Below are positions 4,491-30,592 of a stretch of DNA of 64,000 bases, one piece after another (position 1 is the stretch's first letter; each line of letters starts with the position of its first letter). The DNA lies in assembly GCA_001799845.1 (NCBI GenBank), contig MGUG01000030.1, forward strand, positions 1 to 64,000, read 5' to 3'. The position numbers and the translations under genes were made by a program. The stretch is from Elusimicrobia bacterium GWC2_64_44 (GTDB lineage Bacteria > Elusimicrobiota > Elusimicrobia > Elusimicrobiales > UBA9959). The notes under the pieces are model-generated. The model was not told the DNA's origin, did no database searches, and saw only the letters and a list, made by a program, of their open reading frames with translations.

Positions 4491-4494
4491 CTCG

Positions 4495-4569: not shown

Positions 4570-4607
4570 AAAATTTAAAACCCCCGCGGACGGGGGTTTT
4601 AAATTTT
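4570..4607 (-). terminator. Terminator of tRNA-Asn
   Basis: AAAATTTAAAACCCCCG and CGGGGGTTTTAAATTTT pair immediately after the tRNA 3' end. The run of Ts works in either direction. Confidence 0.8.
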
Positions 4608-4608
4608 G

Positions 4609-4680
4609 CTCGCCGGGCTGGACTCGAACCAGCAACCCTTCGGTTAACAGCCGAATGCTCCACCATTGAGCTACCGGCGA
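4609..4680 (-). tRNA. tRNA-Asn (GTT)
   Basis: The minus strand folds as a complete cloverleaf. The acceptor stem is TCGCCGG/CCGGCGA, the anticodon stem TTCGG/CCGAA holds loop CTGTTAA with anticodon GTT, and the T-arm is GCTGG-TTCGAGT-CCAGC. The discriminator is G, and CCA is not encoded. The 3' end is copied, with modifications, three more times downstream. Confidence 0.93.
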
Positions 4681-15026: not shown

Positions 15027-15058
15027 GAAGAAGCCCCTGCAGAGGGGCTTCTTCCTTT
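15027..15058 (+). terminator. Terminator of the beta-CASP gene
   Basis: GAAGAAGCCCCT pairs with AGGGGCTTCTTC around GCAG, followed by CTTTCT. Confidence 0.8.
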
Positions 15059-15069
15059 CTAGGCGTCCT

Positions 15070-15215
15070 ACCGTGGGGACGGGCCCGTCAAAACCGGCGT
15101 CGGTGCATTGTCGCTCCGCTCCACACGCACACAGTGCTCGCGCCTGCCGCTCTCGGCCTCGGCGCTACGCAAGCCTCGGCCTCCGAGAGGCTTTTGCCGG
15201 ACCCATCCCCACGGT
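15070..15215 (+). repeat. Structured intergenic repeat, family B copy 1
   Basis: Arms ACCGTGGGGACGGGCCCG (15070-15087) and CGGACCCATCCCCACGGT pair over about 18 bases. Inside is a hairpin with stem GGCC-TC-GGC/GCC-TC-GGCC and loop GCTACGCAA (15164-15172). The gap 15010-15590 contains only the terminator, this copy, copy 2 and a promoter. Short frames here are repeats read as protein. Confidence 0.8.
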
Positions 15216-15313
15216 CTCCGCCGGTTTCTCCACTGATACGACATTGCCGCGAAGGCATACCCTCACCGTCCCTCCGTCCTGTCAGTACTGTTACAAGCGA
15301 GCCACCAGCGGAG

Positions 15314-15431
15314 ACCGCAGGGGTAGGACAAGCAAAACCGTCGCGAGCCCGACGCTTGCGTAGCGCGGAGGGCGAGTGCCGAGTGAGCGCACGGTGTGCG
15401 CGAACGCGTTTTGCGGTCCTATCCCTGCGGT
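15314..15431 (-). repeat. Structured intergenic repeat, family B copy 2 (inverted)
   Basis: The arms are ACCGCAGGGGTAGGAC and GTCCTATCCCTGCGGT, different from copy 1 yet fully complementary. On the minus strand the hairpin reads GCCC-TC-CGC, loop GCTACGCAA (15356-15364), GCG-TC-GGGC. Bases 15437-15560 are unassigned, but CCCCGACTTCGC near 15516 matches the end of the element at 30421. Confidence 0.8.
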
Positions 15432-15573
15432 ATGCCGCCAACCACGAGCGCCCCGCCCGAGAAGACATACCTCGCCGGCCTTTGATACTGGGCCCCTCCC
15501 CGGCCGGCCCCGACTTCGCATCTCGCGGAACTTTTTCCTGTGCACCATGCTTACGAGGTAGGCGGAAATAGAA

Positions 15574-15579
15574 TATAAT
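15574..15579 (+). promoter_or_regulatory. -10 element for DEAD-box helicase 1
   Basis: TATAAT sits 11 bases before the ATG at 15591, leaving room for a leader of about 5 bases at most. Confidence 0.5.
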
Positions 15580-15590
15580 ATAGATAACAT

Positions 15591-16862
15591 ATGAAGAAAC
15601 TCCTCAAGAAAATAGGGACCAAGGCGCTGCATGTGCTGGGTCTCAAGAAAAAATCAGGCTTCTACGGGCTCGGCATCGCCCCCAAGCTGATGCAGATACT
15701 CGACGCCAAAGGCTTCGTGACCCCGACTCCCATACAGGAGAAATGCATCCGGATCGCCACCGAAGGCAAGGACATGGTCGGCATAGCCCAGACCGGCACC
15801 GGCAAGACCATCGCCTTCTCTATCCCCATGATACAGCGCCTCGCGCAGGGCCCCGGCAAAGCCCTCGTCCTGCTGCCCACCCGCGAACTCGCCGTGCAGG
15901 TGGCCGAAGTCTGCCGCGAATTCGCGCCCGCCTTCAACATGGGCGTCGCCTGCCTCATAGGCGGCGAAGGCAAAGAATCCCAGCTGCGCGACCTCAACCG
16001 CAAGGCCCGCATCCTTATCGGCACCCCGGGCCGCGTCTACGACCATATCGAGCGCGGCGCCGCCAAGGTGCAGGACTGCCGCATCCTCGTCCTCGACGAG
16101 GCAGACCGCATGTTCGACATGGGCTTCGCCCCGCAGATCAACCGCATCATCCGCGAGCTGCCGAAAGAAAGGCAGACCATGCTGTTCTCGGCCACCATAC
16201 CCGACGAGGTCATGAAACTGGCCAGCCAGCACATGAAGCTGCCCATCCGCATAGAGGCGGCCAGGTCCGGCACCGCCGCGGCGAACGTCATCCAGGAACT
16301 TTACGTAGTGCGCAGCGCCATGAAGCCCCTGCTCCTCTCCAAGCTCCTCGAGAAATACACCGGCACCGTGCTCATCTTCGTCGAGACCCGCTACGACGCC
16401 GCCAAGGTGGCCATGATCCTCGAGCATATGAACCACCACGTGGCCGAGCTGCACTCCGACCGCACCATGGGCCAGCGCAAAGACGCCATGGAAGGCTTCA
16501 AGTCCGGCAAGTACCGCATACTCGTGGCCACCGATATCGCCGCCCGCGGCATAGACGTGACCGGCATCGAAGCTGTGATCAATTACGAGATGCCCGCCGA
16601 GGACGACGCCTACGTGCACCGCATCGGCCGCACCGGCCGCGCCGGTCAGCCCGGCCGCGCCATCACCTTCGCCACGCCAGACCAGGGCGGCGACGTGCGC
16701 AGCATCGAGACACTCACCGGCATCCCCATGAACCAGGTGACGCATCCCGAAGTCCCCGCCGAGACCCTCTGGGGCTACGACAAGGCCGTCGGCGGCCGCG
16801 GCTGGAACCAGCGCTCCGCGCGCAGGCCCTCCGGCGGCGGCGGCAGGGGCAGGCGCCGGTGA
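15591..16862 (+). CDS. rhlE: DEAD-box RNA helicase, RhlE-like, copy 1
   Basis: The 423-residue product is an ATP-dependent RNA-unwinding enzyme. Motifs appear in order: a Q-motif (GFVTPTPIQEKC), AQTGTGKT (motif I), PTRELAVQ (Ia), LDEADRMFDMGF (DEAD, II), FSATIP (SAT, III), VATDIAARGIDV, and HRIGRTGRAG (VI). The N-terminus is a basic stretch (KKLLKKIGTKALHVLGLKKK), and the C-terminus is a short GGGGRGRRR tail likely to contact RNA. It is closely related to the helicase at 19574. It ends in a GTGA overlap with the pilin-like gene, so the two are translationally coupled. Confidence 0.92.
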   Translation: MKKLLKKIGTKALHVLGLKKKSGFYGLGIAPKLMQILDAKGFVTPTPIQEKCIRIATEGKDMVGIAQTGTGKTIAFSIPMIQRLAQGPGKALVLLPTRELAVQVAEVCREFAPAFNMGVACLIGGEGKESQLRDLNRKARILIGTPGRVYDHIERGAAKVQDCRILVLDEADRMFDMGFAPQINRIIRELPKERQTMLFSATIPDEVMKLASQHMKLPIRIEAARSGTAAANVIQELYVVRSAMKPLLLSKLLEKYTGTVLIFVETRYDAAKVAMILEHMNHHVAELHSDRTMGQRKDAMEGFKSGKYRILVATDIAARGIDVTGIEAVINYEMPAEDDAYVHRIGRTGRAGQPGRAITFATPDQGGDVRSIETLTGIPMNQVTHPEVPAETLWGYDKAVGGRGWNQRSARRPSGGGGRGRRR

Positions 16863-17176
16863 AGAGCGCCCGCCGCGGCGCGGCGCTACTGCAGGTCCTG
16901 GTCATTTCGGTGCTGCTGCTCGCGGCGGCGATGATAGTGATCCGGGGGCTGCTGCAGCGCAACCAGATGAGCGCCAAGGCCTCGGTACAATCCCAGCTCA
17001 AGATAGACGTGGAAGGCACCCGCGGGGCCGTGAACTCCTGCCTGGGCGCGGCCGGCTACCCGGACGCTTCCTGCCAGCCCACGGCCGCGCAGGCGGCCTG
17101 CGTGCCGCCCGGGGTCAGCATAGTCTTTTCCGGCACGCCTCCTAACTGCGAAATGCAGATAACAGCCACCCGCTGA
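16859..17176 (+). CDS. Small prepilin-like protein
   Basis: The product has 105 residues starting at GTG 16859, which overlaps the helicase stop (GTGA). A short basic leader RRG precedes a hydrophobic helix (AALLQVLVISVLLLAAAMIV) that looks like a type IV pilin or minor pseudopilin N-terminus; cleavage would follow the Gly. The usual Glu at position 5 of the mature chain is replaced by Gln. The C-terminal half is small and has four cysteines (NSC, ASC, AAC and NCE), which could form two disulfides. No other pilus gene is in the window, so a stand-alone minor pilin is the best guess. Confidence 0.6.
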   Translation: MKSARRGAALLQVLVISVLLLAAAMIVIRGLLQRNQMSAKASVQSQLKIDVEGTRGAVNSCLGAAGYPDASCQPTAAQAACVPPGVSIVFSGTPPNCEMQITATR

Positions 17177-17191
17177 CCGAAGCAAAAAACA

Positions 17192-17219
17192 AAAAAGGCC
17201 GCCTCCTGGCGGCCTTTTC
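17192..17219 (+). terminator. Terminator between convergent genes
   Basis: AAAAAGGCCGCC pairs with GGCGGCCTTTT around TCCT. Confidence 0.85.
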
Positions 17220-17235
17220 CATGCCCTCCCGCGGG

Positions 17236-18375
17236 CTAGTAAGGCGCGCGGGCCGACTTGAAGAGCTTCTCGAACTCGGCCAGGTAAGGCGCCGAGTACT
17301 CCGGGGCCAGCGTGAAGATAGTGTTCTCGGTGTTCGCGTCCTCGGCGGTGGCGGTCCAGTTGAAAGAGCCGTTGATCAGCAGCTTGCCGTCTAGTACGGC
17401 GTACTTGTTGTGCATCTGGCCTTTCTCCAGGCGGCCGTCCTTGAAGCGGAAGTCGATGCTGCTGGCCTTGGCTTCCTTTAGGAAGGGGAACTTCTGGCCG
17501 GAGAACAGCATCATCCGCACGCGCACGCCGCGGGCGGCGGCCCGCTTCAGCGCTTCCATGATGTTCTTGGAGGTGAGGGTGAACATGGCCACCGCCACGT
17601 CGGAGCGGGCGGCGTCCAGCGCTTTTACTATGGCCGCCTCGGTGCCGCCGCGCGGCGAAAAGGCGTAATCCGGCAGCGCGGTGCCGTTAAAATTCACATC
17701 GGGAGTGGGGTCGGAGGGCGGGGGGGTGGGTTTCGCTGCGGCGGCGCCCGGCTGGCCCGCGGGCCTGGCCTGCGCCCACATCCAGTCGAAATTCCTGCCA
17801 TAGCCGCCGACGATGTCCGCGTCGGCCACGAACATGATGTTCTCGTAGCTGAAGCTCTCGGCGAAGCCGCTCCAGTTGGCAGAACCGGTCTGCAGCAGCG
17901 TGCCGTCGAAGAGCGCGTACTTGCAGTGCATCGCGCCCGTGCCGCCGCGGCCGTTCATGGCGCGGGCTTCGATGCCGGCGTCTATCACGGCCTGGATCTG
18001 CCTGCCGGCCTGCGGGTAGACGTGGGCCTTGTCGAACAGCACGCGCACTTTCACGCCGCGCTCCCTGGCCTGCACCAGGGCCGTCACGGCGGCGTCTATC
18101 TGCAGGTTGTAGAGGGCCACGTCCAGCGTATCCTTGGTGCGGCCGATAGCGTCCACGATGGGTTTCGCCAGGGCTTCCTCGTCGGTAAAAATGTAGGCGG
18201 GCAGGCCGGACCAGTCGTAAGCGCGGCCCGGCTCGTAGAAGGGCGCGGGGGGAACCGGCGCCTCCACGGGCGGCAGGGTTTTCAGCGTCAGCGTCTCGAG
18301 CGGGGCGGGCGGGGCGGCAAAGACCGCGGTAACGGACAAGAAAAGGACCAGCAGAGCGTTAAGTGATTTCAGCAC
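17236..18375 (-). CDS. Exported phospholipase D-family protein with two HKD motifs
   Basis: The 379-residue product has a signal peptide (residues 1-20, SVTAVFA) and two PLD domains. The first HKD is AMHCKYALFD followed by GSANWS near residue 160; the second is QMHNKYAVLD followed by GSFNWT near residue 325. A Pro-rich linker (about 215-225) separates the halves. Such proteins hydrolyse phosphodiester bonds in phospholipids or nucleic acids; export favours an extracellular or periplasmic substrate. The start is GTG with GGAGG five bases upstream. It adds to the set of secreted degradative enzymes in this region. Confidence 0.87.
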   Translation of the reverse strand: MLKSLNALLVLFLSVTAVFAAPPAPLETLTLKTLPPVEAPVPPAPFYEPGRAYDWSGLPAYIFTDEEALAKPIVDAIGRTKDTLDVALYNLQIDAAVTALVQARERGVKVRVLFDKAHVYPQAGRQIQAVIDAGIEARAMNGRGGTGAMHCKYALFDGTLLQTGSANWSGFAESFSYENIMFVADADIVGGYGRNFDWMWAQARPAGQPGAAAAKPTPPPSDPTPDVNFNGTALPDYAFSPRGGTEAAIVKALDAARSDVAVAMFTLTSKNIMEALKRAAARGVRVRMMLFSGQKFPFLKEAKASSIDFRFKDGRLEKGQMHNKYAVLDGKLLINGSFNWTATAEDANTENTIFTLAPEYSAPYLAEFEKLFKSARAPY

Positions 18376-18523
18376 GGAACCTCCACCTGCGAAGCAACAG
18401 GATACCTATACTTTAGCTGATGCGGCGGCGCGGCGGCAGGGGCATAGGGCCTGCGCCCGCGCCGTCTTAGGGCCCACGCGGACGGGGGCCTTTAGGCCGA
18501 TGCCGTCCTCGCGCGGTTTTGTA

Positions 18524-18529
18524 TATAAT
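18524..18529 (+). promoter_or_regulatory. -10 element for the acetyltransferase at 18541
   Basis: TATAAT lies 11 bases before the ATG; there is no Shine-Dalgarno site and little room for a leader. Confidence 0.45.
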
Positions 18530-18540
18530 GTATCCGATAT

Positions 18541-19032
18541 ATGAAAAAGGCGCCGCACGTCACCGTGAAAAAAGTCTCCCGCGAGAGCGGAGAGTGGCGC
18601 ACGCGCTTCGAGGCCTTCTATTCGGATTGCGAGATCCGGCGCGTGGACAAGCTGCCGCACGCCTATTTCGCCGCCTATTCCGGCGACGAGATCGCCGGGC
18701 ACAGCGTGGTCTATTTCGAAAAAGGGCGCTGGGTGATGGACGGCCTGCGGGTCAAGCCGGAATTTCGAGAGCGCGGGATAGCCAAGGCCCTCACCGAGGC
18801 CCGCATCCGCCACGCCCTGGAGCAGGGCGCCAAGGAAGTCTGGTACGCCTGCGAAGACGGCAACCTGGTCACCATCTGCTGCCACCTGCGCTACGGCTTC
18901 GAGAAAGTCTGCCCGCACGAGCATTGCAACGCCGCCACGGCGCACTGGTACCGCCTGAAGATCACGCCGCAATTGTTCGAGAAATTCCCAGCGCTCAAGC
19001 CCGGCCGGGCGGCCGGTCACTCCACCCCGTAA
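18541..19032 (+). CDS. GNAT-family N-acetyltransferase
   Basis: The 163-residue product carries the GNAT acetyl-CoA site: MDGLRVKPEFRERGIAKALTEARIRHAL with the RxxGIA loop, preceded by a strand GHSVVYFEKGRW. The second half (VWYACEDGNLVTICCHLRYGFEKV) follows the family fold. Four cysteines and HEHCN near the C-terminus are unusual, but no metal motif is certain. It is not closely similar to the acetyltransferase at 13128. Its 3' end overlaps the convergent gene at 19017 by 16 bases, and no terminator lies between them. Confidence 0.82.
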   Translation: MKKAPHVTVKKVSRESGEWRTRFEAFYSDCEIRRVDKLPHAYFAAYSGDEIAGHSVVYFEKGRWVMDGLRVKPEFRERGIAKALTEARIRHALEQGAKEVWYACEDGNLVTICCHLRYGFEKVCPHEHCNAATAHWYRLKITPQLFEKFPALKPGRAAGHSTP

Positions 19033-19523
19033 ACTTCCTGCTTCTCCAGCGACACGTGCACGGTTTTAGCCCGCACGAAGCGCAGGTATTCCCTGGCCTG
19101 GTCGCTCAGCAGCCCCATGGAAACCTCTACGCGCTCGCCGGCGCCCAGCGGGTCGCTGTGGCCGTACGGGCGCGACCAGATGACCGCGCCGTTCTCGTCC
19201 TTGAAGACGAGCGTGCCGTTGAAGGCGAAAAATTTGCGGTTGGTGGTGTTCTCGAATTCGAGGAACAGCTTGATGCCCAGTTTCTCCTGGCCTACCACCT
19301 GTTTCTTTTTAAGGAAGACCACCCCGATCGGGTTGGCCGGCAGCCGCTGGGAAGCGGCCGGCGCGGCTAGCGCGGCCGCGGCGGCGCCGCCGGTTTCCAG
19401 CCTGACCAACCTCTTCTCTACCTTCGTCACCCGCTTCTCCAGGCCGGTCAGCCGTTTTTCGGTCTTGGTCTGGCAGAAGGCCGGGGCGGCGCAGAAGAGC
19501 AGGCAGAGGAGCAGCGGTCTCAT
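19017..19523 (-). CDS. Exported coiled-coil protein of unknown function
   Basis: The 168-residue product has a signal peptide (residues 1-17, CAAPAFC) and then a short heptad-rich coiled coil (TEKRLTGLEKRVTKVEKRLVRLE, about residues 21-42). An Ala-rich linker leads to a C-terminal domain of about 95 residues with a beta-sandwich-like pattern (KLFLEFENTTNRKFFAFNGTLVFKDENG). That resembles small domains describing extracellular hydrophobic or Ig-like folds, but I cannot name a family. TATAAT is 6 bases upstream of the ATG, giving a leaderless mRNA. Its promoter is divergent to that of helicase 2. Confidence 0.62.
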   Translation of the reverse strand: MRPLLLCLLFCAAPAFCQTKTEKRLTGLEKRVTKVEKRLVRLETGGAAAAALAAPAASQRLPANPIGVVFLKKKQVVGQEKLGIKLFLEFENTTNRKFFAFNGTLVFKDENGAVIWSRPYGHSDPLGAGERVEVSMGLLSDQAREYLRFVRAKTVHVSLEKQEVYGVE

Positions 19524-19529
19524 ACCTCA

Positions 19530-19535
19530 ATTATA
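19530..19535 (-). promoter_or_regulatory. -10 element of a leaderless promoter (gene at 19523)
   Basis: A perfect TATAAT on the minus strand is 6 bases from the ATG. Confidence 0.6.
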
Positions 19536-19562
19536 CTACTGTCGCCGCCGCTCCAGATATGG

Positions 19563-19568
19563 GATAAT
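19563..19568 (+). promoter_or_regulatory. -10 element of a leaderless promoter (helicase 2)
   Basis: GATAAT lies 5 bases before the ATG at 19574, divergent to the -10 at 19530-19535. Confidence 0.55.
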
Positions 19569-19573
19569 GACAT

Positions 19574-21193
19574 ATGACCGAAACGACACAAACTCCCGCC
19601 GCGGGCTTTTATGGCCTGGGCATCGCTCCCAAACTCCTCGAAGCTTTAGACAAGCTGAACTTCAAGACCCCGACCCCCATACAGCACAAGGCCATCCCGC
19701 CCGCCTCCGAAGGCAAGGACATGGTGGGCATAGCCCAGACCGGTACCGGCAAGACCATAGCCTTCGCCATCCCGATGATCCAGCGCCTGGCCGCCGCCGG
19801 CCAGGGCAAGGGCCTGGTAGTGGTGCCCACCCGCGAGCTCGCCCTGCAGGTGGCCGAGGTGGTGCGCCAGTTCTCGCCGCTGCTGGGCATGGGCTGCGCC
19901 GTCATCATAGGCGGCGAGAGCATGAACCGCCAGACGGCGGAGCTCCGCAAGGGCCCCCGCATCATCATCGCCACCCCCGGCCGCCTGATCGACCACGTGG
20001 CCCAGCGCACCGTCAGCCTTTCCGACGTGCGAGTGCTGGTCCTCGACGAAGCCGACCGCATGTTCGACATGGGCTTCGCGCCGCAGATAGAGAAGATAGT
20101 GGCCGCGCTGCCGCGCGACCGCCAGACCATGCTGTTCTCCGCCACCATGCCCGACCCCATCATGAAGCTGGCCAGCCGCCACATGAAGCTGCCGCTGCGC
20201 ATCGAGGTGGCCCGCCCCGGCACCGCCGCCGAAAGAGTGGAGCAGGAACTTTTCATCGTAGACCGCAGCGAGAAGAACGCGCTCCTCGCCAAGCTGCTGG
20301 ACAAGTACTGGGGCAGCGTGCTGCTCTTCGTGCGCACCAAGCATAACGCCAAGAAGATCGCGCGCGCCATCAGGGAGATGCCCCACAGCGCCTCCGAGAT
20401 CCACTCCAACCGCTCGCTCGCGCAGCGCAAGGAAGCCCTGGAGGGCTTCAAGTCCGGCAAGTACCGCGTGCTCGTGGCCACCGACATCGCGGCCCGCGGC
20501 ATAGACGTGACCGGCATAGAGCTGGTGATCAACTACGATCTGCCCGACGAGGACGAGAACTACGTGCACCGCATCGGCCGCACCGGCCGCGCCGGCCAGC
20601 CCGGCCGCGCCATCACCTTCGCCGCGCCCGACCAGGGCGCGGACGTGCGCAATATAGAGCGCCTGATCCGCATGCCGCTGACGCGTATAAAGATGCCCGA
20701 CGTGGCCGCCGCGGATTTCGGCGCTCCGGAAGGCCCCAGGCCCGGCGCCAGGCCCGCGCCCGTCCAGGCCACGCAGCAGCCCCGCGGCGAGCGCCCCCGT
20801 CAGCAGCAGGGCAGGCCCGCGCAGTCCGGCCCCCGCGGCGGCGGCAGGCCTGGCCCGCGCCGCGGCGAAGGCCGCCCCGGCAGGCCCCAGGAGAAGCGCT
20901 CCGAGTTCGGCCGCGGCGCAGGCAGAGGCCCCGCCCGCGGCGGCCGCCCTGCGCCGGACAGGGACGGGCGCCCCAACCGCTATGGGGTAGCCCCGGATAA
21001 GAAGGGGGGCATAGTCAGCCTCTCGCCCTATTTCGACGAGCCCAGGCGCCACGACGGCCCCAGGCGGCACGAGGGCCCCAGGCGGCAGGGCAGGCAGGAC
21101 TCCCGGCCCGCCGAGCCCCAGCAGCCCGCCCCGGGCGGCAACTGGTTCACCCGGTTCCTGAAGAAGAAAAAGACTGATTACAAGAACGAGTAG
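19574..21193 (+). CDS. rhlE: DEAD-box RNA helicase with long Arg/Gly/Pro-rich tail, copy 2
   Basis: The helicase core (about residues 10-385) matches copy 1 nearly motif for motif: NFKTPTPIQHKA, AQTGTGKT, PTRELALQ, LDEADRMFDMGF, FSATMP, DIAARGIDV, HRIGRTGRAG. Unlike copy 1 it has a disordered tail of about 150 residues rich in Arg, Gly, Pro and Gln (RGG- and RRHEGP-like repeats), ending in a hydrophobic-basic NWFTRFLKKKK. Such tails raise RNA affinity and can drive condensation; cold or stress roles are known for relatives. Two RhlE-type genes within 4 kb suggest duplication followed by tail divergence. A strong terminator follows. Confidence 0.92.
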   Translation: MTETTQTPAAGFYGLGIAPKLLEALDKLNFKTPTPIQHKAIPPASEGKDMVGIAQTGTGKTIAFAIPMIQRLAAAGQGKGLVVVPTRELALQVAEVVRQFSPLLGMGCAVIIGGESMNRQTAELRKGPRIIIATPGRLIDHVAQRTVSLSDVRVLVLDEADRMFDMGFAPQIEKIVAALPRDRQTMLFSATMPDPIMKLASRHMKLPLRIEVARPGTAAERVEQELFIVDRSEKNALLAKLLDKYWGSVLLFVRTKHNAKKIARAIREMPHSASEIHSNRSLAQRKEALEGFKSGKYRVLVATDIAARGIDVTGIELVINYDLPDEDENYVHRIGRTGRAGQPGRAITFAAPDQGADVRNIERLIRMPLTRIKMPDVAAADFGAPEGPRPGARPAPVQATQQPRGERPRQQQGRPAQSGPRGGGRPGPRRGEGRPGRPQEKRSEFGRGAGRGPARGGRPAPDRDGRPNRYGVAPDKKGGIVSLSPYFDEPRRHDGPRRHEGPRRQGRQDSRPAEPQQPAPGGNWFTRFLKKKKTDYKNE

Positions 21194-21200
21194 CGCACAA

Positions 21201-21229
21201 GACCCCGCCGCCAGGCGGGGTCTTTTTTT
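21201..21229 (+). terminator. Terminator of helicase 2
   Basis: GACCCCGCC pairs with GGCGGGGTC around GCCA, followed by a run of seven Ts. Confidence 0.9.
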
Positions 21230-21254
21230 GCTGTCCGTTACCCCTCCTTTTTAG

Positions 21255-21260
21255 TATATT
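21255..21260 (+). promoter_or_regulatory. -10 element of a leaderless promoter (multi-PAS kinase)
   Basis: TATATT ends 6 bases before the ATG at 21267; the -35 is weak. Confidence 0.5.
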
Positions 21261-21266
21261 CAGTAT

Positions 21267-24200: not shown

Positions 24201-24491
24201 GCCAACGAAGAACTGGCGGCGCGGCCGGAAGGGCTGCCGCTACCACCGGAGCCGGGCAGCTACGTGACGCTGACGGTAACCGACACCGGCGCCGGCATGG
24301 CTCCGGAAACCGCGGCCCGGATCTTCGAACCGTTTTTCACCACTAAGCCCGAGGGCATGGGGACGGGCCTCGGTTTGTCCACGGTCTTCAGCATCGTACA
24401 GCAGTCCCGGGGCGGCATAGCCCTGGAAAGCCGCCCGGGCAAGGGCAGCGCCTTCAAGATCTACTTACCGCGCCTGCCCGCCAAAACATAA
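21267..24491 (+). CDS. Cytoplasmic histidine kinase with six PAS domains
   Basis: The 1074-residue product has no membrane helix, so it should sense an internal cue. Four PAS repeats of one type fill about residues 25-530 (each with an FGY segment, a Y-P-x-x-x-YR segment and a closing EDIT or DDIT). Two of another type fill about 530-780 (SLYRALIETTxTGYVV, DANREYVRLxG, GRSVLEW). A coiled coil (LEKHVEERTAELSAANMEL) leads to a HisKA domain with GGIAHDFNNIL, then a HATPase domain with NLVINARDAMPDGG, DTGAGM and GTGLGLS. No receiver domain or partner regulator is adjacent. The clear internal duplications indicate recent domain amplification. Confidence 0.9.
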   Translation: MGGTNYRKDGLHGGEAGETDGQPLQGVSALRRILDYAAVPLAVVNSDDIFESYNRKAEETFGYSSAEVPDMAHWWALAYPEAAYREESKKRWLAGLQKARQGDGVIERGEYRVTCKDGSLKTCSFFGSVIEGKAFIMLEDITARSQTETALRETEATLRKIIDSAPMSMAIVGMDGVIEYINRKAVQTFGYPHADIPNMDRWWAQAYPDEPYRKDVIARFMGHVSDAIEKNTEIAGEEYLVTCKDGSKKTCFIFGVVAAGKIFVMFDDITQRVEAVKAIRSSETTLRRILELAPIAISVQDLDARMEFINRKFSETFGYTTEDVSDYEAFKRSFFPDDAYRQEVYGVWKGWVQESLQSGREMPGGQFNVRCKSGVTKEAYITGMTTPDKKVISLFEDITARNQAALEIAENARTLRRTLEQAPICIAVYTLDGKLNFLNAKFTQTFGYKSGEMPTAEDWMRLAYPDPAYREKLGRQWALLLDKAVRTNGEIDGGEYRVVAKDGTTRNVMVHGVVTDDKQVVCLLEDITARVETERALRERESLYRALIETTGTGYVVLDGHGRVQDANREYVRLSGHSDLKEIMGRSVLEWSAPRHQARAWEAVEIVTRDGRLANFELDYVDKAGKCTTIEINATVVSRGGVQQILGMCRDVSARSKTETELRDSESLYRALIETTRTGYVVIDTKGKVVDANREYVRLTGRSDLKEILGRSVLEWTSPEQQESNAAAVARCAREGYVFNFETEYIDTKGKHTPVEVNATVVNRRGTPQIHTLCRDITDRRRAEAELQSLNQGLEKHVEERTAELSAANMELTMEIAQRIDAERGRSKLQEELLQSQKMEVVGRLAGGIAHDFNNILVAISGYAEMLQKRVPADGTESEDLNEIIRETERGALLTRQLTTISRRQPLELKELSVNTVVEDSCRMLRRLIGANIHLASSLAPDLGSVKADQGQVSQVIMNLVINARDAMPDGGTISLATANEELAARPEGLPLPPEPGSYVTLTVTDTGAGMAPETAARIFEPFFTTKPEGMGTGLGLSTVFSIVQQSRGGIALESRPGKGSAFKIYLPRLPAKT

Positions 24492-24518
24492 AAAAGACGC
24501 CGCCCTGAGGCGGCGGCA
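24490..24518 (-). terminator. Terminator of the membrane-protein gene at 24537
   Basis: On the minus strand, GCCGCC pairs with GGCGGC around TCAG, followed by GTCTTTTTTAT. It is also just past the kinase stop on the plus strand. Confidence 0.75.
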
Positions 24519-24536
24519 GTGACGCTCCGGCCGGCG

Positions 24537-25070
24537 CTACGCCGGCCTGGGGGACCTGTTATACCAGCCCAGTATCAGCCCCAGCGCCAGCGACCAGAGC
24601 GCGGCCAGGCCTATGCGCAGGTCCGGCGGCAGCAGGAAGGTCACCGTGTGCGCCGGCACCCAGAACCAGAGCAGCGAAAGCAGGCTTTTATCCAGGTTGG
24701 CCCAGTTGGAGCGGCCGTCTATCGCGTTGTCCATCAGGCGGTGGACGAGCACCAGGAAAGGGCCGAACTGCAGGTTCATGGCCAGCGACACGGCGAAGGC
24801 GCGGCCCAGCGCGCCCGGGGCGGGCAGCAGGCCGTGGGCGACCAGCCCGTCGACAAAACCGATAAAGCCGGTAAAGGCGTATTTGATGCAGACCGCGAGC
24901 GCGGCCCAGCCCAGCGCCCTCAGCAGCGTGCCGCGCAGCCCGAAGGGGGAGAATACGCGGCCGGCGCCCAGCCACTTCGAGAGCACCTCGCCCAGCGTGC
25001 CCAGCACAGCGAACTGCGCCATGGCGGTCAGTATAGGATGGGCCTGCACGAGGGAAATATAGCTATCCAT
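24537..25070 (-). CDS. Integral membrane protein with Mpv17/PMP22-like features
   Basis: The 177-residue product has about four membrane helices. The layout resembles Mpv17/PMP22 proteins: an N-terminal YISLVQAHPILT, a middle NLQFGPFLVLVHRLMD (cf. the conserved N-x-x-x-GP and Asp), and a C-terminal LWFWVPAHTVTFLLPPDLRIG stretch like the family W-x-P...F-x-x-P-x-x-R signature. The similarity is by eye only, and Mpv17 proteins are mainly eukaryotic, so the call is tentative. TAAGAT lies 6 bases from the ATG, pointing to a leaderless mRNA. It forms its own transcription unit. Confidence 0.5.
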   Translation of the reverse strand: MDSYISLVQAHPILTAMAQFAVLGTLGEVLSKWLGAGRVFSPFGLRGTLLRALGWAALAVCIKYAFTGFIGFVDGLVAHGLLPAPGALGRAFAVSLAMNLQFGPFLVLVHRLMDNAIDGRSNWANLDKSLLSLLWFWVPAHTVTFLLPPDLRIGLAALWSLALGLILGWYNRSPRPA

Positions 25071-25076
25071 ACGCCT

Positions 25077-25082
25077 ATCTTA
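25077..25082 (-). promoter_or_regulatory. -10 element of a leaderless promoter (gene at 25070)
   Basis: TAAGAT on the minus strand is 6 bases from the ATG. Confidence 0.4.
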
Positions 25083-25148
25083 CCAATTTTAAAAAGCGCC
25101 CGCCCCTTTTGGGCGCCGCGCCCGGAACCCCCTCGCCCTTTCATTTTG

Positions 25149-25154
25149 TAGAAT
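25149..25154 (+). promoter_or_regulatory. -10 element of a leaderless promoter (LysE gene)
   Basis: TAGAAT is 6 bases before GTG 25161. The context TAGAATTAACCCGTGACC closely resembles TATAATTAACCTGTGACC at the M28 gene. Confidence 0.55.
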
Positions 25155-25160
25155 TAACCC

Positions 25161-25775
25161 GTGACCGCACCCGATAACCTGGTATATTTCCTCGGCGTTT
25201 CAGTGGCGCTGACCGTGGCGCCGGGGCCCGATGTGATCTTCCTGGCCTCGCAGGGGCTGGCCGGCGGCCCGCGCGCCGGGCTGGCGGTGGCGCTGGGGCT
25301 CAGTACCGGGCTGCTCGCGCATACCGCGCTGGCCGCCCTGGGCGTGTCGGCCGTGTTCGCCGCCTCGCCGGCCGCCTTCGGCCTGGTGAAATGGGCGGGA
25401 GCCGCCTACATGGTCTGGCTAGCCTGGTGCGCCTTCCGGGAGCGGCCGGTCGCCGCCGGCGCGCGGGGCCCTGCCGGGAGCGCCGCCGCCCTCTACCGGC
25501 GGGGGATCGTCATGAACCTGCTGAACCCCAAGGTAGCGCTGTTCTTCCTGGCGCTGCTGCCCCAGTTCGTAGATCCCGCCCGTGGGCCGGTGCGCGCCCA
25601 GATGGCGGTACTGGGCCTGGTCTTTATGGCGCAGGTCGTGGTCGTCTTCGGAACTATCGGTTACCTGTCGGGCCGCCTCGGCGAGAGATTCCTGCCCGGC
25701 GCCGGCCACGCCCGCGCCATAGCCGCGGCCAAGGGGCTGGTCTTTCTTTCCGTCGCCGTGCTGCTCTCCCTCTGA
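25161..25775 (+). CDS. LysE/RhtB-family amino acid exporter
   Basis: The 204-residue product has about six membrane helices. Family signatures are VALTVAPGPDVIFLASQGLAGGP at residues 15-37, the LGLSTGLLAHTALAALGVSA segment, and GIVMNLLNPKVALFFLALLPQFVDP near residue 115. LysE proteins export basic amino acids, homoserine or threonine; the substrate here is not clear. It would relieve amino-acid overload in an organism that imports peptides, which fits the oligoendopeptidase gene downstream. The start is GTG, without a ribosome-binding site, next to a leaderless -10. Confidence 0.88.
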   Translation: MTAPDNLVYFLGVSVALTVAPGPDVIFLASQGLAGGPRAGLAVALGLSTGLLAHTALAALGVSAVFAASPAAFGLVKWAGAAYMVWLAWCAFRERPVAAGARGPAGSAAALYRRGIVMNLLNPKVALFFLALLPQFVDPARGPVRAQMAVLGLVFMAQVVVVFGTIGYLSGRLGERFLPGAGHARAIAAAKGLVFLSVAVLLSL

Positions 25776-25803
25776 AAGGCGGGGGCGCCTTTGTGATTTT
25801 AGG

Positions 25804-25809
25804 TATAAT
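25804..25809 (+). promoter_or_regulatory. -10 element for pepF
   Basis: TATAAT lies 24 bases before ATG 25834, and GGAGG at 25825-25829 provides a normal ribosome-binding site. This gene therefore contrasts with its leaderless neighbours. Confidence 0.55.
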
Positions 25810-25833
25810 TCTGAAAAGGTTTTTGGAGGAACA

Positions 25834-27654
25834 ATGGCTGAAAAGAAACAGGGCGTGCAGTGGGACCTTACCAGTTACTTCCCGGCTTTCAACGGCCCGG
25901 AGATGCTCAAATTCAAAGCGAAGCTCGCGGCCGACATAGCCGCGCTGCAAAAGAAAGCGGCCAAGCTCCCGCCGCTTTCGGCCAAAACCGCCAACGACTG
26001 GGAGAAACTGCTGCTCACTGCCGAAGAGACCGGCATGCGCCTGGGGCATATCTACTCTTACGTGGGCTGCCTCGAGGCCGCGCACTCCGACAAGGACGAA
26101 TACGCGGCGGAAAGCGCCAGGCTCGACGGGCTCGCCGCGGAATACTCCAAGTTCAGCGTGGACGTGCTGCGGGCGTTCAAGGACGTGCCGGAGAAGGTCT
26201 TCTCCGCCTTCATAAAGCGCGAAAAGCTCAAGGACATCGCCTATTCCCTCAAGCGCCTGCGCGAGCAGGCGAAACGCACCATGACCCCGGCCGAAGAGAA
26301 ACTGGCCGCCGACCTGTCCGTGGACGGGTTCCAGTCCTGGGAGCGCCTCTACAACAAGGTCTCCAGCAAGCTGACCTTCGAGATGCGCTGGCCCGACGGG
26401 CGCGTTGAGACGCTGCCTATCTCGCGCTGGCGCGCGCTGATGGGCGACGCCGACCGCAAGGTGGGCCGGGCCGCCTTCGAGGGCGGCAACAAGGCCTGGG
26501 CGACCATAGAGGACTCCTGCGCCGCCGCGCTGAACGCCCTGTCCGGCACGCGGCAGGCGCTCAACCGCCGCCGCGGCGTGAAGCATTTCCTGGACCAGTC
26601 CCTGTTCCGCGCCGGCATAAAGCGCTCTACCCTCGACGCCATGTACGAGGCCGTCGGGCGGAACCTCGAGCCCGTGCGCGAGATCCTGCGCGTCAAAGCC
26701 GCGGCGATGGGGCGCAAGGGTATAGCTTTCTACGAGAGGGAAGCCCCGCTGCCGCTCAAGGACAACAAGCTCTATACCTGGGAGGAAGGCTCCGCCAAGG
26801 TGGAGGGGGCCTTCGGCCGCGTCTACCCGGCACTGGGGGCCTTCTACAAAGAGTTCCTGGAGAAGAAAATGCTGGAGAGCGAGGCCCGCGGCGGCAAGCG
26901 CCCCGGCGCTTTCTGCACCGGCTCCCACTATATTAAGGAAGGCCGCGTCTACATGACCTTTAACGGCACCCTGGGAGACGTGAACACGCTGGCCCATGAG
27001 ATGGGCCACGCCTGGCACGGCCGCCTGATGCAGGACATGCGCGACTGGGCCACCGAATACCCGATGACGCTGGCCGAGACGGCCTCCATCTTCGGCGAGC
27101 ACCTCCTGGCCGAGGGCATACAGGGCGACCCCGCAGTCCCCGAGGCGCAGAAGCTGATCATGCTCGACGAGTACCTCAGCGGCGCGGCCATCACCATCCT
27201 CGACATCACCGTGCGCTTCCGCTTCGAGAAGGCCTTCCACGAGGAGCGCGTGAAGGGGGAAGTTTCCGTCGCGCGGCTCAAGGAGCTGATGGTGAGCGCG
27301 CAGAAGGAAGTGTTCGGCGACGCGCTGGAGCCGGGCGGCGAGGACCCGCTGTTCTGGGCCTCCAAGCTGCATTTCTACATGGCCGGCGTTTCGTTCTACA
27401 ATTATCCCTACACCTTCGGCTTCCTGATGGCGGCCACGCTGTTCACCAAGTTCAAGGCCGAAGGCCCGGCCTTCCTGCCCAAGTACGAGGCCTTCCTTCG
27501 CCATAGCGGCTCCGACACCGCCGAAGGCGTTGCGCGGCGCAGCCTGGGCGCGGATATCGGCAAGCCGGAGTTCTGGGAGACGGCGATAAAAGGGCTGGCG
27601 CCGCAGCTGGCCCGCTACCGCAAGCTGCTGGCCGGCCTCAAGGTGAACGCGTGA
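25834..27654 (+). CDS. pepF: Oligoendopeptidase F, M3 family
   Basis: The 606-residue cytoplasmic zinc peptidase cleaves short peptides. The zinc motif HEMGHAWHG lies near residue 389 with the third ligand Glu in LAETASIFGEHLL downstream. The segment GKRPGAFCTGSHYIKEGRVYMTFNGT and the C-terminal FYNYPYTFGFLMA are family hallmarks. Length and domain order are typical for PepF. It has a good GGAGG site. Its stop overlaps the next gene by 4 bases (GTGA), so the DUF2238 protein is co-translated. It would finish the breakdown of peptides produced by the exported peptidases. Confidence 0.93.
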   Translation: MAEKKQGVQWDLTSYFPAFNGPEMLKFKAKLAADIAALQKKAAKLPPLSAKTANDWEKLLLTAEETGMRLGHIYSYVGCLEAAHSDKDEYAAESARLDGLAAEYSKFSVDVLRAFKDVPEKVFSAFIKREKLKDIAYSLKRLREQAKRTMTPAEEKLAADLSVDGFQSWERLYNKVSSKLTFEMRWPDGRVETLPISRWRALMGDADRKVGRAAFEGGNKAWATIEDSCAAALNALSGTRQALNRRRGVKHFLDQSLFRAGIKRSTLDAMYEAVGRNLEPVREILRVKAAAMGRKGIAFYEREAPLPLKDNKLYTWEEGSAKVEGAFGRVYPALGAFYKEFLEKKMLESEARGGKRPGAFCTGSHYIKEGRVYMTFNGTLGDVNTLAHEMGHAWHGRLMQDMRDWATEYPMTLAETASIFGEHLLAEGIQGDPAVPEAQKLIMLDEYLSGAAITILDITVRFRFEKAFHEERVKGEVSVARLKELMVSAQKEVFGDALEPGGEDPLFWASKLHFYMAGVSFYNYPYTFGFLMAATLFTKFKAEGPAFLPKYEAFLRHSGSDTAEGVARRSLGADIGKPEFWETAIKGLAPQLARYRKLLAGLKVNA

Positions 27655-28259
27655 CGAAGAAGCTGCCGCATTTGCTGCTGGGCTTTTACCTCGCGGAATT
27701 CCTGGCGCTGGCCGTGAACCCCTATTCCAGGGACGTCTGGTTCGCAGAGAACCTGCCTATGGTCCTCATCGTGGGAGCGCTGATCCTCACCTACCGGCGC
27801 TTCGCCTTCTCCAACGCCTCGTACCTGTGCATGAGCGCGCTGGTGTTCCTGCATACCATAGGCGGGCACTACACCTTCGAGCGGGTGCCGTTCGGCTTCG
27901 TGACCGACCTGTTCGGGTTCACGCGCAACCACTACGACCGCATAGCGCATTTCTCGGTCGGCTTCTACGCCTACCCCATCGCCGAGTTCATATGGCGCAA
28001 GGGCTACAGCAGGTCCAAAGGGCTGCTGGCGTTCACCGGGATCACCGCCATCTTCACCGTGGCGGCCGTCTACGAGATCATAGAGTGGTGGTACGCCGCC
28101 TCGGCGGACCCGGAGGCGGGCATCGCCTTCCTGGGCAGCCAGGGCGACGTCTGGGACGCCCAGAAGGACATGTTGGCCGACGGGCTGGGCTCCATCTGCG
28201 CCGCCGTCGCCTTCCTCTTCCACTACAAGGACCCGCCGGGGACGCAAGACGCCGCCTGA
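27651..28259 (+). CDS. DUF2238/YjdF-family membrane protein
   Basis: The 202-residue product has about five membrane helices and matches DUF2238: VFLHTIGGHYTFERVPFG near residue 65, TRNHYDRIAHFSVGF near residue 95, YEIIEWW, and GSQGDVWDAQKDMLADGLG near residue 160. These conserved His, Arg, Glu and Asp residues sit at helix ends and may form an active or metal site, but the family function is not known to me. GTG start overlaps the pepF stop. A bidirectional terminator follows. Confidence 0.85.
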   Translation: MTKKLPHLLLGFYLAEFLALAVNPYSRDVWFAENLPMVLIVGALILTYRRFAFSNASYLCMSALVFLHTIGGHYTFERVPFGFVTDLFGFTRNHYDRIAHFSVGFYAYPIAEFIWRKGYSRSKGLLAFTGITAIFTVAAVYEIIEWWYAASADPEAGIAFLGSQGDVWDAQKDMLADGLGSICAAVAFLFHYKDPPGTQDAA

Positions 28260-28263
28260 AATA

Positions 28264-28295
28264 AAAAACCCCGGTTCCGACCGGGGTTTTTTATC
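28264..28295. terminator. Bidirectional terminator
   Basis: AAAAAACCCCGGT pairs with ACCGGGGTTTTTT around TCCG between convergent genes. Confidence 0.88.
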
Positions 28296-28311
28296 GGTCC
28301 GCGGGGCGGGC

Positions 28312-29241
28312 TCAGTCGTCGGTAGTTATGCCGTTGAAGAAGCTTCGGTTCAGAGCGGTCTCTCCGGACTCTTCGCCGGTGGCCTGCGGCACCACGCCGG
28401 TCCAGTACTCAGGCGAGAACATGGTGCCGGTGTTGAGGTAAAGCTGGTCGGTGGAATAGATCACGTTGCAGTCGCGCTTGTAGGGCATCTCGGGGCAGCC
28501 GTACTTGCTGAAGACGGCGTAGCGGTAGTCGAAGCCGCCCTGCCCGGCCTCCCGGAGGCCCTGGGACGAGAAATACTTGAAGCCCACCACGTCGGGGCCG
28601 TAGCTGGGGAGCAGCTTGCCCGTCTTGCTGATGTAGGAAATAAAGGTGACCGCGTGCCCGGTCTTGGTGGTGCGGTTGATGTTGACGAAGTCGCCGGGCA
28701 GCAGCTTGTCGAAGGTGCGCCGCTCGCCCATGCCGAAATTTATCAGGGCGTCGGCGGTGCCGTCGGCCTTGAAGTCATGGTTGACCCAGATATGGCCCTT
28801 CAGGTCGGTGATGGCCAGGCCCTCGAAGCTGCGCTTGGGCAGGTAATTGTAGACCGAATAGTCGCCGGTCTCCCTGGCGTAGAGGTCGAAGGCGGTGAGG
28901 ATGACCTCCATCTGGGCGGCCACGCACATCGTGAGCGGGGCGCGGCGGGCCTTGATGGTGCCGAAGGTGTGGTATTCGATATCGTGCGTCAGGATGGAGT
29001 TGATGTCGTAGCCGAGCAGGCCGTAATTCTTGTAGAGGTGGTCCACGGCCTTGAGCACGTAGGCGTTGAAATACTTGTCGCCGGCGCGTGCGCCGGCGCG
29101 CAGCGGCACGGCCACCTCGGGTGCGGCCGGCAGGGTCAGCTCGCGCAGGTCTTGCAGCTGAAGGGAATTAAGGGTGAAGGCGGTCTGCGCCGAAGCGCCG
29201 CAGGGAAGTGCGATTGCAAGTAGTAGGAGAAGCCTGGTCAT
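28312..29241 (-). CDS. Exported protein, possible papain-fold cysteine hydrolase
   Basis: The 309-residue product has a signal peptide (residues 1-18, PCGASA). I do not recognise a named family. Cys106 in PLTMCVAAQME lies at the start of a hydrophobic helix, and His196 lies in LPGDFVNINRTTKTGHAVTFISYI, a strand that looks like the catalytic His strand of CHAP or NlpC/P60 amidases (GD-x-V ... GH-x-V-x-F). This Cys-then-His order suggests a peptidoglycan or peptide hydrolase. Next to an L,D-transpeptidase gene on the same strand, a cell-wall role is plausible. A Shine-Dalgarno site GAGG and a full promoter are present. Confidence 0.55.
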   Translation of the reverse strand: MTRLLLLLAIALPCGASAQTAFTLNSLQLQDLRELTLPAAPEVAVPLRAGARAGDKYFNAYVLKAVDHLYKNYGLLGYDINSILTHDIEYHTFGTIKARRAPLTMCVAAQMEVILTAFDLYARETGDYSVYNYLPKRSFEGLAITDLKGHIWVNHDFKADGTADALINFGMGERRTFDKLLPGDFVNINRTTKTGHAVTFISYISKTGKLLPSYGPDVVGFKYFSSQGLREAGQGGFDYRYAVFSKYGCPEMPYKRDCNVIYSTDQLYLNTGTMFSPEYWTGVVPQATGEESGETALNRSFFNGITTDD

Positions 29242-29272
29242 TTGACATTCCTCAAGTCGTCCGCTTCATATA

Positions 29273-29300
29273 ATTATACAACTATAGAAGTGCGTGTCAA
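29273..29300 (-). promoter_or_regulatory. Promoter for the exported hydrolase candidate
   Basis: On the minus strand, a perfect TTGACA (29295-29300) and TATAAT (29273-29278) are spaced 16 bases, giving a leader of about 25 bases with a GAGG site. Confidence 0.75.
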
Positions 29301-29305
29301 CAAGT

Positions 29306-29992
29306 TCAGGGTTTGGCTGACGGGGTGACGCCCTTAACGCAGATGGCGGCGTTGGACCTGCCGTTGGCCTTGATCAGGGTGTATAAGGTCTTGGCGTCGG
29401 CCTTGGAGAGGCGGATGCAGCCGTGAGAGGCGGGCTGGCCCAGCAGATGTTCGGCGTTGGTGCCGTGCATGGCGATATTGCCGTTGAAGAAGACGCTGTG
29501 CGGCATCGGGGCCTTGTTGTAGAGGCTGGAGTAGTGCATCTCCTCGATGAAATCGGGGGCGAAGCATTTGCCGCTGCCGGGCGTGCCGTTCTTCGGGAGC
29601 AGCCCCGAGGAGATCTTGAAGGTCTGGTCGAAGTCCTTGGCCTGCACGTTGACGCGCTGGCGGTCGAGGTACACCGTTATCTTCACCAGCGCGTTCTCTA
29701 TGCGCTTGGGGTCCGTGATCTGGAAGCGCGCGGGGGAGAGGCCGAAGGCGAGGGCGACCTCCTCGGGGGTATGCTCGTCGATGAACGCCGCGGGATCGGC
29801 CAGGGCCTCGGCCTGCAGCGCGGTGAGGACGTGGTCGCCGGCCTCGGCCGGGGCCGGCACGGGGCCGGGCTGCTCCAGCTGCGCGGGGCTGACGCCCAGC
29901 GCCGGCAGCTGGCGCTGTATGGTCACAAAATCGAGGGAAAAAGCGGGGGTGGAACCGAGCACAAGAGCCGCAAGCGCGAGAATATTCTTCAT
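29306..29992 (-). CDS. Exported L,D-transpeptidase (YkuD domain)
   Basis: The 228-residue product has a signal peptide (STPAFS) and a C-terminal YkuD domain with the catalytic signature HGTNAEHLLGQPASHGCIRLS, where Cys is the nucleophile. The domain starts near residue 105 (ALVKITVYLDRQRVNV). Such enzymes form 3-3 cross-links in peptidoglycan or attach proteins to it; they act in the periplasm. About 75 residues before the domain form a Pro/Ala-rich linker and a helical part. GGAGG precedes the ATG by 8 bases. The upstream gap contains an AGGGCC-rich palindrome. Confidence 0.88.
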   Translation of the reverse strand: MKNILALAALVLGSTPAFSLDFVTIQRQLPALGVSPAQLEQPGPVPAPAEAGDHVLTALQAEALADPAAFIDEHTPEEVALAFGLSPARFQITDPKRIENALVKITVYLDRQRVNVQAKDFDQTFKISSGLLPKNGTPGSGKCFAPDFIEEMHYSSLYNKAPMPHSVFFNGNIAMHGTNAEHLLGQPASHGCIRLSKADAKTLYTLIKANGRSNAAICVKGVTPSAKP

Positions 29993-30055
29993 TAACTTTG
30001 CCTCCGGTTAAACTCTGCCCTCTTACTATAACTTTCTTGAGCCCGACCGGAGATG

Positions 30056-30116
30056 AAGCGAAGGGCCTAATTCCCTTCCGCCTTTTGCCGCCGCAAACCT
30101 GGGCCCTTTGGTTTGT
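30056..30116 (-). promoter_or_regulatory. AGGCC-type palindromic region upstream of the L,D-transpeptidase
   Basis: The minus strand carries CCAAAGGGCCCAGG and GAATTAGGCCCTTCG, resembling the AGGCC palindromes at 384-432 and 12308-12350. TATAGT (30025-30030) is a likely -10 between this region and the gene. Confidence 0.35.
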
Positions 30117-30150
30117 ATCCAACTTCACATTGCTTTCCCGCCACCGCCTG

Positions 30151-30203
30151 CTATACTATAATCGGCTCGGCCTCCCGCCCAAAAGTGGAGGCCCAATTTT
30201 TTA
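30151..30203 (+). other. Orphan promoter-like and terminator-like pair
   Basis: TATACT/TATAAT (30152-30162) on the plus strand is followed by hairpin GGCCTCC/GGAGGCC and TTTTTT. No gene lies between. It could make only a very short RNA, or the hairpin may end transcription from elsewhere. The gap 29993-30602 otherwise holds repeats B and C. Confidence 0.3.
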
Positions 30204-30265
30204 TATCCCCTAATCTATAATCCATGTTCGGCGGCCTACCGCAGGGGCTCGAAGTTTGGCGGCCT

Positions 30266-30388
30266 ACCGTGGGGACGGGCCCGTCAAAACCGCGGTCTCG
30301 CACACAGTGCTCGCCGCTGCCCGCCTCAGCCCTCGCGCTACGCAAGCTCGGGCTTCCGGCATGCTTTTGCCGGACCCATCCCCACGGT
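30266..30388 (+). repeat. Structured intergenic repeat, family B copy 3
   Basis: Arms are the same as copy 1 (ACCGTGGGGACGGGCCCG and its partner at 30371-30388). The inner hairpin reads AGCCC-TC-GC, loop GCTACGCAA (30337-30345), GC-TC-GGGCT. A fragment GGCGGCCTACCGCAGGGG at 30230-30247 repeats the left border with the copy 2 arm sequence. Confidence 0.8.
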
Positions 30389-30420: not shown

Positions 30421-30592
30421 AGAAAGAACCGGAGGGGTGGCAGGGGTGCTGCCCCCCGAACCCTTTGCGGAAGGGGGGGCCCCGCCTTAAATTCCCAAGG
30501 CGGGGGGAAACCGACGCAAGGGTTTCCATCTTCCAGGGTTCGGGGGGTAGTACCCCTGCCAGGCCCCCGACTTCGCTTCTCGCGGTTCTTTC
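30421..30592 (+). repeat. Structured intergenic repeat, family C copy 1
   Basis: Arms of over 40 bases pair (AGAAAGAACCG at the ends, GGCAGGGGTGCTGCCCCCCG inside). The core holds hairpin CCCCGCCTT/AAGGCGGGG around AAATTCCC and hairpin GGAAACC/GGTTTCC. It lies 10 bases beyond the stop of the Ehr small-subunit gene. Confidence 0.78.

Follow-up and report, generated by a model that had tools for sequence, protein, structure and literature searches.

Two intergenic regions in the genome of Elusimicrobia bacterium GWC2_64_44 carry copies of a repeat that adopts a Y-shaped three-way junction. Both lie within the first 64 kb of contig MGUG01000030.1 (C30), one of the 60 contigs that make up this 3.09-Mb genome. 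This 64-kb stretch is the DNA analyzed here and is referred to as the window. The first region, between a gene for a beta-CASP metallo-beta-lactamase-like protein and a DEAD-box helicase gene, holds a pair of copies (15070-15431). The second, between genes with L,D-transpeptidase (YkuD) and Oxidored_q6 domains, holds a single copy. A preliminary description of the window had located three copies of a hairpin-bearing repeat at 15070-15215, 15314-15431 (inverted) and 30266-30388, and all three are found at these positions. The hairpin is present in each, but it is not the whole element. The complete unit is approximately 105-145 nt long and consists of a closing stem (P1), a short arm (P2) and a further arm (P3) that corresponds to the reported hairpin. 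On the strand opposite to the one originally described, the TC/TC mismatch reads GA/GA and occurs at up to three places. This GA strand is the informative strand of the element.

In the first region, the pair is part of a composite element that begins directly after a terminator-like hairpin followed by a T-rich tract (15028-15053, plus strand; AAGAAGCCCCTGCAGAGGGGCTTCTT), which probably serves the upstream gene. The left end of the composite, a boundary taken from five aligned copies in the same genome, is at 15062-15073 (plus strand; GGCGTCCTACCG). Next comes a type 2 module at 15070-15215 with its GA strand on the minus strand, a 24-nt insertion in P2 and its P3 loop at 15164-15172. A covariance model built from 20 own-genome copies (R1) matches it at 15078-15210 (minus, E 9.8e-8). 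A linker to which no strand is assigned (15216-15313) joins this module head-to-head to one of type 1 at 15314-15431, such that the two R1 matches are 108 nt apart. The GA strand of the type 1 module is the plus strand, its P3 loop is at 15356-15364, its P2 tip is at 15390-15398 and its R1 match spans 15319-15423 (plus, E 3.1e-28). The right end of the composite is at 15506-15528 (plus strand; GGCCCCGACTTCGCATCTCGCGG).

In the second region, an extra left-end sequence stands isolated at 30230-30241 (plus strand; GGCGGCCTACCG) and is perhaps a truncated copy. The same sequence forms the left end of the second composite element at 30258-30269 (plus strand). It is followed by a type 2 module at 30266-30388 (GA strand minus, P3 loop at 30337-30345), which R1 matches at 30274-30383 (minus, E 3.3e-8). 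The right module is a different long palindrome (30430-30569, no strand assigned), in which 30430-30464 forms an inverted repeat with 30535-30569 that is 86% complementary. The right end is at 30562-30585 (plus strand; GGCCCCCGACTTCGCTTCTCGCGG).

The three-way-junction fold

The closing stem P1 consists of an outer stem, an internal loop and then, in most copies, a GCAAAAC/GTTTTGC helix. P2 has a CAC-GGT-GTG tip with flanking GA/GA, and P3 carries up to two GA/GA sites and the loop TTGCGTAGC. Each window copy folds far better than its shuffled counterparts on both strands, and none of 200 shuffles is as good. Folding z scores for the three copies are -6.85, -4.67 and -6.31 on the GA strand and -5.91, -4.15 and -4.53 on the strand first described. 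The variant stems and the changes in the outer arms are matched by the partner strand in all three copies, exactly as the preliminary description had claimed. The P3 loop alone is little proof of a family. It occurs as GCTACGCAA exactly three times in the window, on the plus, minus and plus strands at the loop positions given above, and 3 of 100 shuffled windows reach three or more matches. The window repeats are judged to be beyond chance because R1 finds matches elsewhere in the same genome and because covariation is far above that of shuffled and slid controls.

In a first alignment (A1), from which RNAalifold recovered only 12 pairs, MAFFT misplaced the 3' arm. Subfamilies were therefore aligned apart and their structures assigned by hand. 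Of the 50 distinct cores, 20 went into alignment A2 and 13 into A3. The other 17, which have insertions, gaps, truncations or other P1 types or represent further variants, were omitted. In A2, which has 32 pairs, 98.4% of cells are paired and 13 pairs have changed on both sides. The covariation score is 0.322, compared with 0.106 for shuffled alignments and at most 0.065 for slid partners. In A3, which has 22 pairs, 96.5% of cells are paired, nine pairs have changed on both sides, and the score is 0.326 versus 0.097 (shuffled) and at most 0.084 (slid).

A set from other genomes comprises 103 R1 matches, 100 of them distinct, in 80 loci. Its alignment (A4) was fitted to R1 and is biased to the R1 structure, which favors type 1. 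In this set, both sides have changed in 25 of the 32 pairs (455 cells, versus 114 in shuffles), and the score of 0.405 exceeds those of shuffled (0.111) and slid (at most 0.066) controls. The compensatory change that was put forward as strong evidence for a selected structure thus holds up when many more copies are aligned, and the element offers an unusually rich natural record of covariation.

An invariant loop and a fixed mismatch, both part of the preliminary description, are true of the window copies, but each is relaxed across the family. The loop is near-invariant, with 87 of the P3 loops in the 100 distinct matches from other genomes being accounted for by five forms of TTGC[A/G][T/C]A(A)GC. 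The P2 tip is GGT in 97. GA/GA is found in 81 at the base of P2 and in 77 at the lower P3 site (below P3b). The upper P3 site (above P3b) is GA/GA in 48 and is replaced by Watson-Crick GC/GC in 28.

The sequence of P1 varies far more. P1 is detectable in 212 copies, and these form 62 clusters, of which the largest (123 copies) is the GGCGG family of the window, the second has 18 copies, seven have 2-4 and the remainder are singletons. Complementarity among 93 distinct P1s, counted outward from the inner loop, is 0.86-1.0 at positions 1-10, 0.49 at position 11 and 0.71-0.88 at positions 12-17. It is 0.58 and 0.51 at positions 18 and 19 and 0.33 at position 20, and past position 19 it ranges from 0.25 to 0.48. 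P1 is a stem of almost free sequence and set length, with a mismatch at a constant distance from the inner loop (position 11).

Distribution and genomic context

DNA searches of the own genome return 45 and 47 places. R1 returns at least 78 matches at E<=0.1 and at least 73 at E<=3.5e-5 (150 of 2375 candidates scored). A pattern scan of genomes finds at least 104 stretches, and the 80 listed have titles naming Elusimicrobia, Elusimicrobiales, Elusimicrobiota or 'bacterium' bins. Related genomes do contain further copies, as would be expected from the preliminary description. Among 101 relatives, own genome included, R1 matches are present in 45: all 32 members of the genus, 13 of 27 other members of the family and none of 42 outside it. 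Across the phylum, 46 of 340 genomes have matches, namely 45 of the 59 from one Elusimicrobiota family and 1 of 281 others. Because the filters in both searches were strict, weak copies may have escaped detection. The outlier (G111), from another family of the same class, has one stray match (E 6.3e-8) that may reflect transfer, contamination or chance.

Genomic position was analyzed for 101 of the 103 matches, with two cut by locus ends omitted and genes called with a home-made gene caller. None of the 101 matches, which lie in named loci, overlaps a called gene. Of these matches, 64 lie in co-directional gaps, 21 in convergent gaps and 5 in divergent gaps, and 11 have one neighbor not determined. 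Counted by gap, 15 of 45 convergent gaps are occupied versus 4 of 40 divergent gaps (p=0.017), and 56 of 381 co-directional gaps are occupied. Copies are intergenic and prefer the 3' ends of genes. They show no clear orientation bias in co-directional gaps, with 28 copies oriented with the genes and 36 against them.

Many copies are single. Where two are close (<1 kb), they are head-to-head in 35 of 35 cases among the matches listed for three genomes (85 of 96 in G019, 65 of 70 in G014 and 73 of 78 in the own genome), with spacers of 22-142 nt. In the named loci, 16 of 17 close pairs are head-to-head. Small genes are found between head-to-head copies at L165 (5993-6253), L184 (5838-6245) and L230 (706-1269), the first of which encodes a GIY-YIG domain (PF01541, E 2.5e-18). 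These genes look like passengers and are not read as a mobilizer.

The composite units, as defined by the five aligned own-genome copies, run from GGCGGCCTA to CCGACTTCGCTTCTCGCGG and are approximately 330-470 bp long with defined ends. Their right module is nearly identical in the five copies, whereas the left three-way junction is variable. The second window locus was used for these boundaries only. A left end is located 200-600 bp away from 40 of 47 right ends, and 6 have no left end in the 265-3000 bp searched. The palindrome that forms the right module at 30430-30569 has many matches in congeners and constitutes a separate, second repeat family.

Other repeats are also present in the window. 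One dispersed intergenic pair (2387-2610 and 51415-51615) has two parts that are 86% and 83% alike and a GA-rich tip (GAGGCACTGTGTGCCGAGC; GGAGCGCACTGTGTGCGCGAC) resembling P2. A weak R1 match (51486-51545, E 0.019) lies inside the second member. Repeats of approximately 118 bp with tRNA-end-like fragments occur at 4248-4614, beside a tRNA gene (4609-4680, minus strand). At a separate locus, L070 (1650-2000), an intact tRNA-Ala gene (1833-1908, minus strand) is flanked on each side by partial copies of its own 3' portion, and these look like the outcome of integration at the tRNA.

Orthologous loci and the strand that folds

Orthologous sites either hold a copy or lack it cleanly, as sorted by reading the loci in two cases. 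At the first window locus, 24 genomes (own included, from 30 loci) retain both neighboring genes. Three-way-junction copies of various types are present in 10 of these and absent from 14. The same gap contains a TATAAT-like box (15573-15591) a few bases upstream of the start codon of the gene at 15591. This box recurs in nearly all of the orthologous gaps shown for the locus, and it looks as if transcription begins at or near the ATG. Two similar stretches (85%, 74%, 69%) at 15713-16453 and 19660-20403 lie in genes that neighbor each other and are probably paralogues, since the first belongs to the DEAD-box helicase gene.

The second case is L088, a locus of genome G017 for which 30 genomes were compared. 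Twelve carry a copy. In 11, the two genes directly adjoin (gap of -1 to 4 bp), and 7 hold something else, which in two is another copy. Presence is scattered over the gene tree, with nine changes, at least five of them forced by well-supported branches. Clustering does not exceed that expected by chance (a value as low occurs in 216 of 500 shuffles). The pattern may thus reflect a single origin followed by repeated clean losses, repeated gains, or recombination between species. P1 is recognizably homologous in the 12 carriers, where 12 of 20 pairs have changed on both sides (31 cells). Ten of the carriers retain the A·G mismatch, and the ratio of G·T to A·C is 12:5.

Cores at a single locus differ in subtype while P1 is kept at L088, L096 and L172, and in the L089/L123 comparison the core is flipped around a retained P1. 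Of five flipped orthologous pairs, only L089/L123 clearly has the same P1, and the rest may be independent insertions. Because cores differ in subtype or flip while P1 stays, they seem to be exchanged between copies.

Unequal mismatches in P1 indicate which strand folds. With one P1 taken per cluster, the GA strand has 53 G·T versus 19 A·C mismatches (p 8e-5) and 65 G·A versus 19 C·T, where the G·A count includes the fixed mismatch. Over P1-distinct copies, G·T:A·C is 73:17 where the TC strand is the one transcribed by the flanking genes, 30:15 where it is the GA strand and 24:9 between convergent genes. Pairing in mRNA predicts the opposite sign in the first of these contexts and is therefore disfavored. 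We read this as selection acting on the folded GA strand independent of read-through. No conserved sequence occurs outside P1 where a promoter could lie (no search for an internal promoter was made), which makes single-stranded DNA likelier than RNA. The RNA-or-DNA question accordingly tilts to DNA, with the folded GA strand more probably single-stranded DNA than mRNA. Splitting G·T and A·C counts by gene direction provides a test, requiring only sequences, that asks if a bacterial palindrome works at the level of mRNA or of single-stranded DNA.

Possible mobile DNA, rival explanations and known systems

The preliminary interpretation, a selected structure, is supported overall. As to what is selected, we give about an even chance that the repeats are non-autonomous mobile DNA elements, found in one Elusimicrobiota family, of the kind that includes repetitive extragenic palindromes (REPs), bacterial interspersed mosaic elements (BIMEs) and REP doublets forming hairpins (REPINs). 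The GA strand would become single-stranded, for example, during replication, and then fold. A structure-specific protein might read the core and the length of P1 and move the unit in trans, as has been proposed for REP-associated tyrosine transposases (RAYTs) and REPINs. Recombination between copies could then swap cores while P1 stays with its locus. A bolder proposal, which we advance only tentatively, is that such elements form a class defined by a folded strand rather than by sequence. Its protein would recognize a G·A-rich core of single-stranded DNA and measure a P1 of free sequence and fixed length, with cores behaving as cassettes and stems remaining in place. Should such a mobilizing protein come to light, it would read a fold and measure a stem that can have nearly any sequence.

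Several observations weigh against mobile DNA. Mobility rests on presence and absence between species, and no movement has been directly observed. The compensation in P1 across 12 species at L088 looks more like selection in place than free hopping. No other result speaks as strongly against a purely selfish reading, and a host function is possible. Between divergent genes, G·T barely exceeds A·C (7:6), and a preference for one replication strand is not convincing (sign count 46 versus 55; signed-rank p=0.029). In addition, no mobilizing enzyme was found by tracking RAYT genes (PF01797) or examining their loci. PF01797 is present in 27 of the 32 genus genomes and missing from 5 that are nonetheless full of copies, and it also occurs in 11 of 14 element-free genomes of the family. 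None of 14 RAYT loci examined (55 kb, R1 E<=1), which are a subset of many PF01797 matches, adjoins a copy.

A long RAYT subfamily, delimited by our own cut of E<1e-80, occurs in 26 of 45 element-bearing versus 2 of 14 element-free family genomes (p=0.006, a value that ignores descent). This subfamily was not found in G019, which is scored 100% complete and has 96 copies. The case for a RAYT as the dedicated mobilizer is weakened, and RAYTs are the obvious candidate without being firmly linked. An autonomous parent in the form of a long-spacer pair was also considered, and the sole 2-kb pair, in G019, merely flanks an ordinary gene. No parent transposon was found at the right ends, most of which have no room for a transposase, although transposase genes themselves were not searched for there.

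Some of these points favor RNA structures that serve the host. Located at gene 3' ends and between operon genes, they would stabilize, process or terminate mRNAs, roles that have been suggested for certain REPs, having spread once and then been selected at each locus. The preference for 3' ends, the position of some copies after a terminator and the maintenance of P1 pairing in the operon at L088 all fit this explanation. We nevertheless consider it unlikely. A cis-regulatory RNA should have a fixed orientation relative to the gene that it regulates, and co-directional copies face either way. The G·T excess stays with the GA strand in places where the TC strand is the transcribed one, and 11 of 30 genomes have the L088 operon genes joined with no copy between them.

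Alternatively, the GA strand might be transcribed from its own promoter as a self-standing RNA, either a small RNA or a retroposon-like one. Its conserved tips resemble those of structured RNAs, and the folding of one strand is selected irrespective of gene direction. Nevertheless, the promoter result described above and the lack of an Rfam match leave this explanation doubtful.

Hairpin slippage during replication can copy one arm of a palindrome onto the other. Passive quasi-palindromes maintained in this way, with no selection for structure, would explain why the letters of P1 are free and yet its pairing is kept. Such copying should erase mismatches, whereas both the G·A sites and the mismatch at position 11 are found again and again at the same places. 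The length of P1 is also set, and there are more G·T than A·C mismatches. We regard passive maintenance as improbable. Equally hard to credit are ordinary miniature inverted-repeat transposable elements, that is, deletion derivatives of a DNA transposon with terminal inverted repeats, because despite the short units, defined ends and presence/absence polymorphism, five copies have no obvious target duplication, the left and right ends are not mutual inverted repeats and are spaced as described above, and P1, with its 62 clusters, is not a conserved terminus.

The mobile-DNA reading also bears on the statement in the preliminary description that the repeats match no known family. Searching the whole window with Rfam 15 at the gathering score yields one tRNA elsewhere in the window and no other family. 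Under relaxed E-values, two window copies and three loci give low-scoring matches only. In the open-access literature, with subscription papers and preprints outside the search, neither this element nor any palindromic repeat family from Elusimicrobiota could be recognized. However, the kind of element is not wholly unknown, because its genomic habits are those described for REP and REPIN repeats. If the mobile-DNA reading holds, mobile DNA of the REP/REPIN type would be known from a phylum, and in an architecture, for which the literature search found no description.

Rfam RNAs of the riboswitch type share with the element a conserved core, a variable closing stem and strong covariation. They differ in that no family matches here and there is no link to gene orientation.

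REPINs are inverted REP doublets proposed to be mobilized in trans by RAYTs (Bertels and Rainey 2011, PMC3116915). Like the Elusimicrobiota repeats, they are extragenic inverted doublets spaced by tens of bases, with compensatory pairing and no gene of their own. The unit described there is a short REP hairpin rather than a three-way junction of 105-145 nt. Here, moreover, the stem sequence is free, the members of the window pair are of different types and no RAYT gene among the 14 examined is flanked by copies.

GTAG and CGTC REPs, as described in Di Nocera et al. 2013 (PMC3733652), are 20-40 bp long with an unpaired terminal tag, and the CGTC group has no known transposase. The main text of that paper makes no mention of Elusimicrobium. 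Both groups share with our repeats an intergenic location between unidirectional and convergent genes and a frequent arrangement as dimers. In the Elusimicrobiota repeats, GTAG is near the 3' side in only 9 of 93 distinct copies, and GAC is in the 5' arm (51 of 93), inside P1. In the broad sense of the term REP, that is, many copies with extragenic positions at the 3' ends of genes, the Elusimicrobiota repeats display each of these features.

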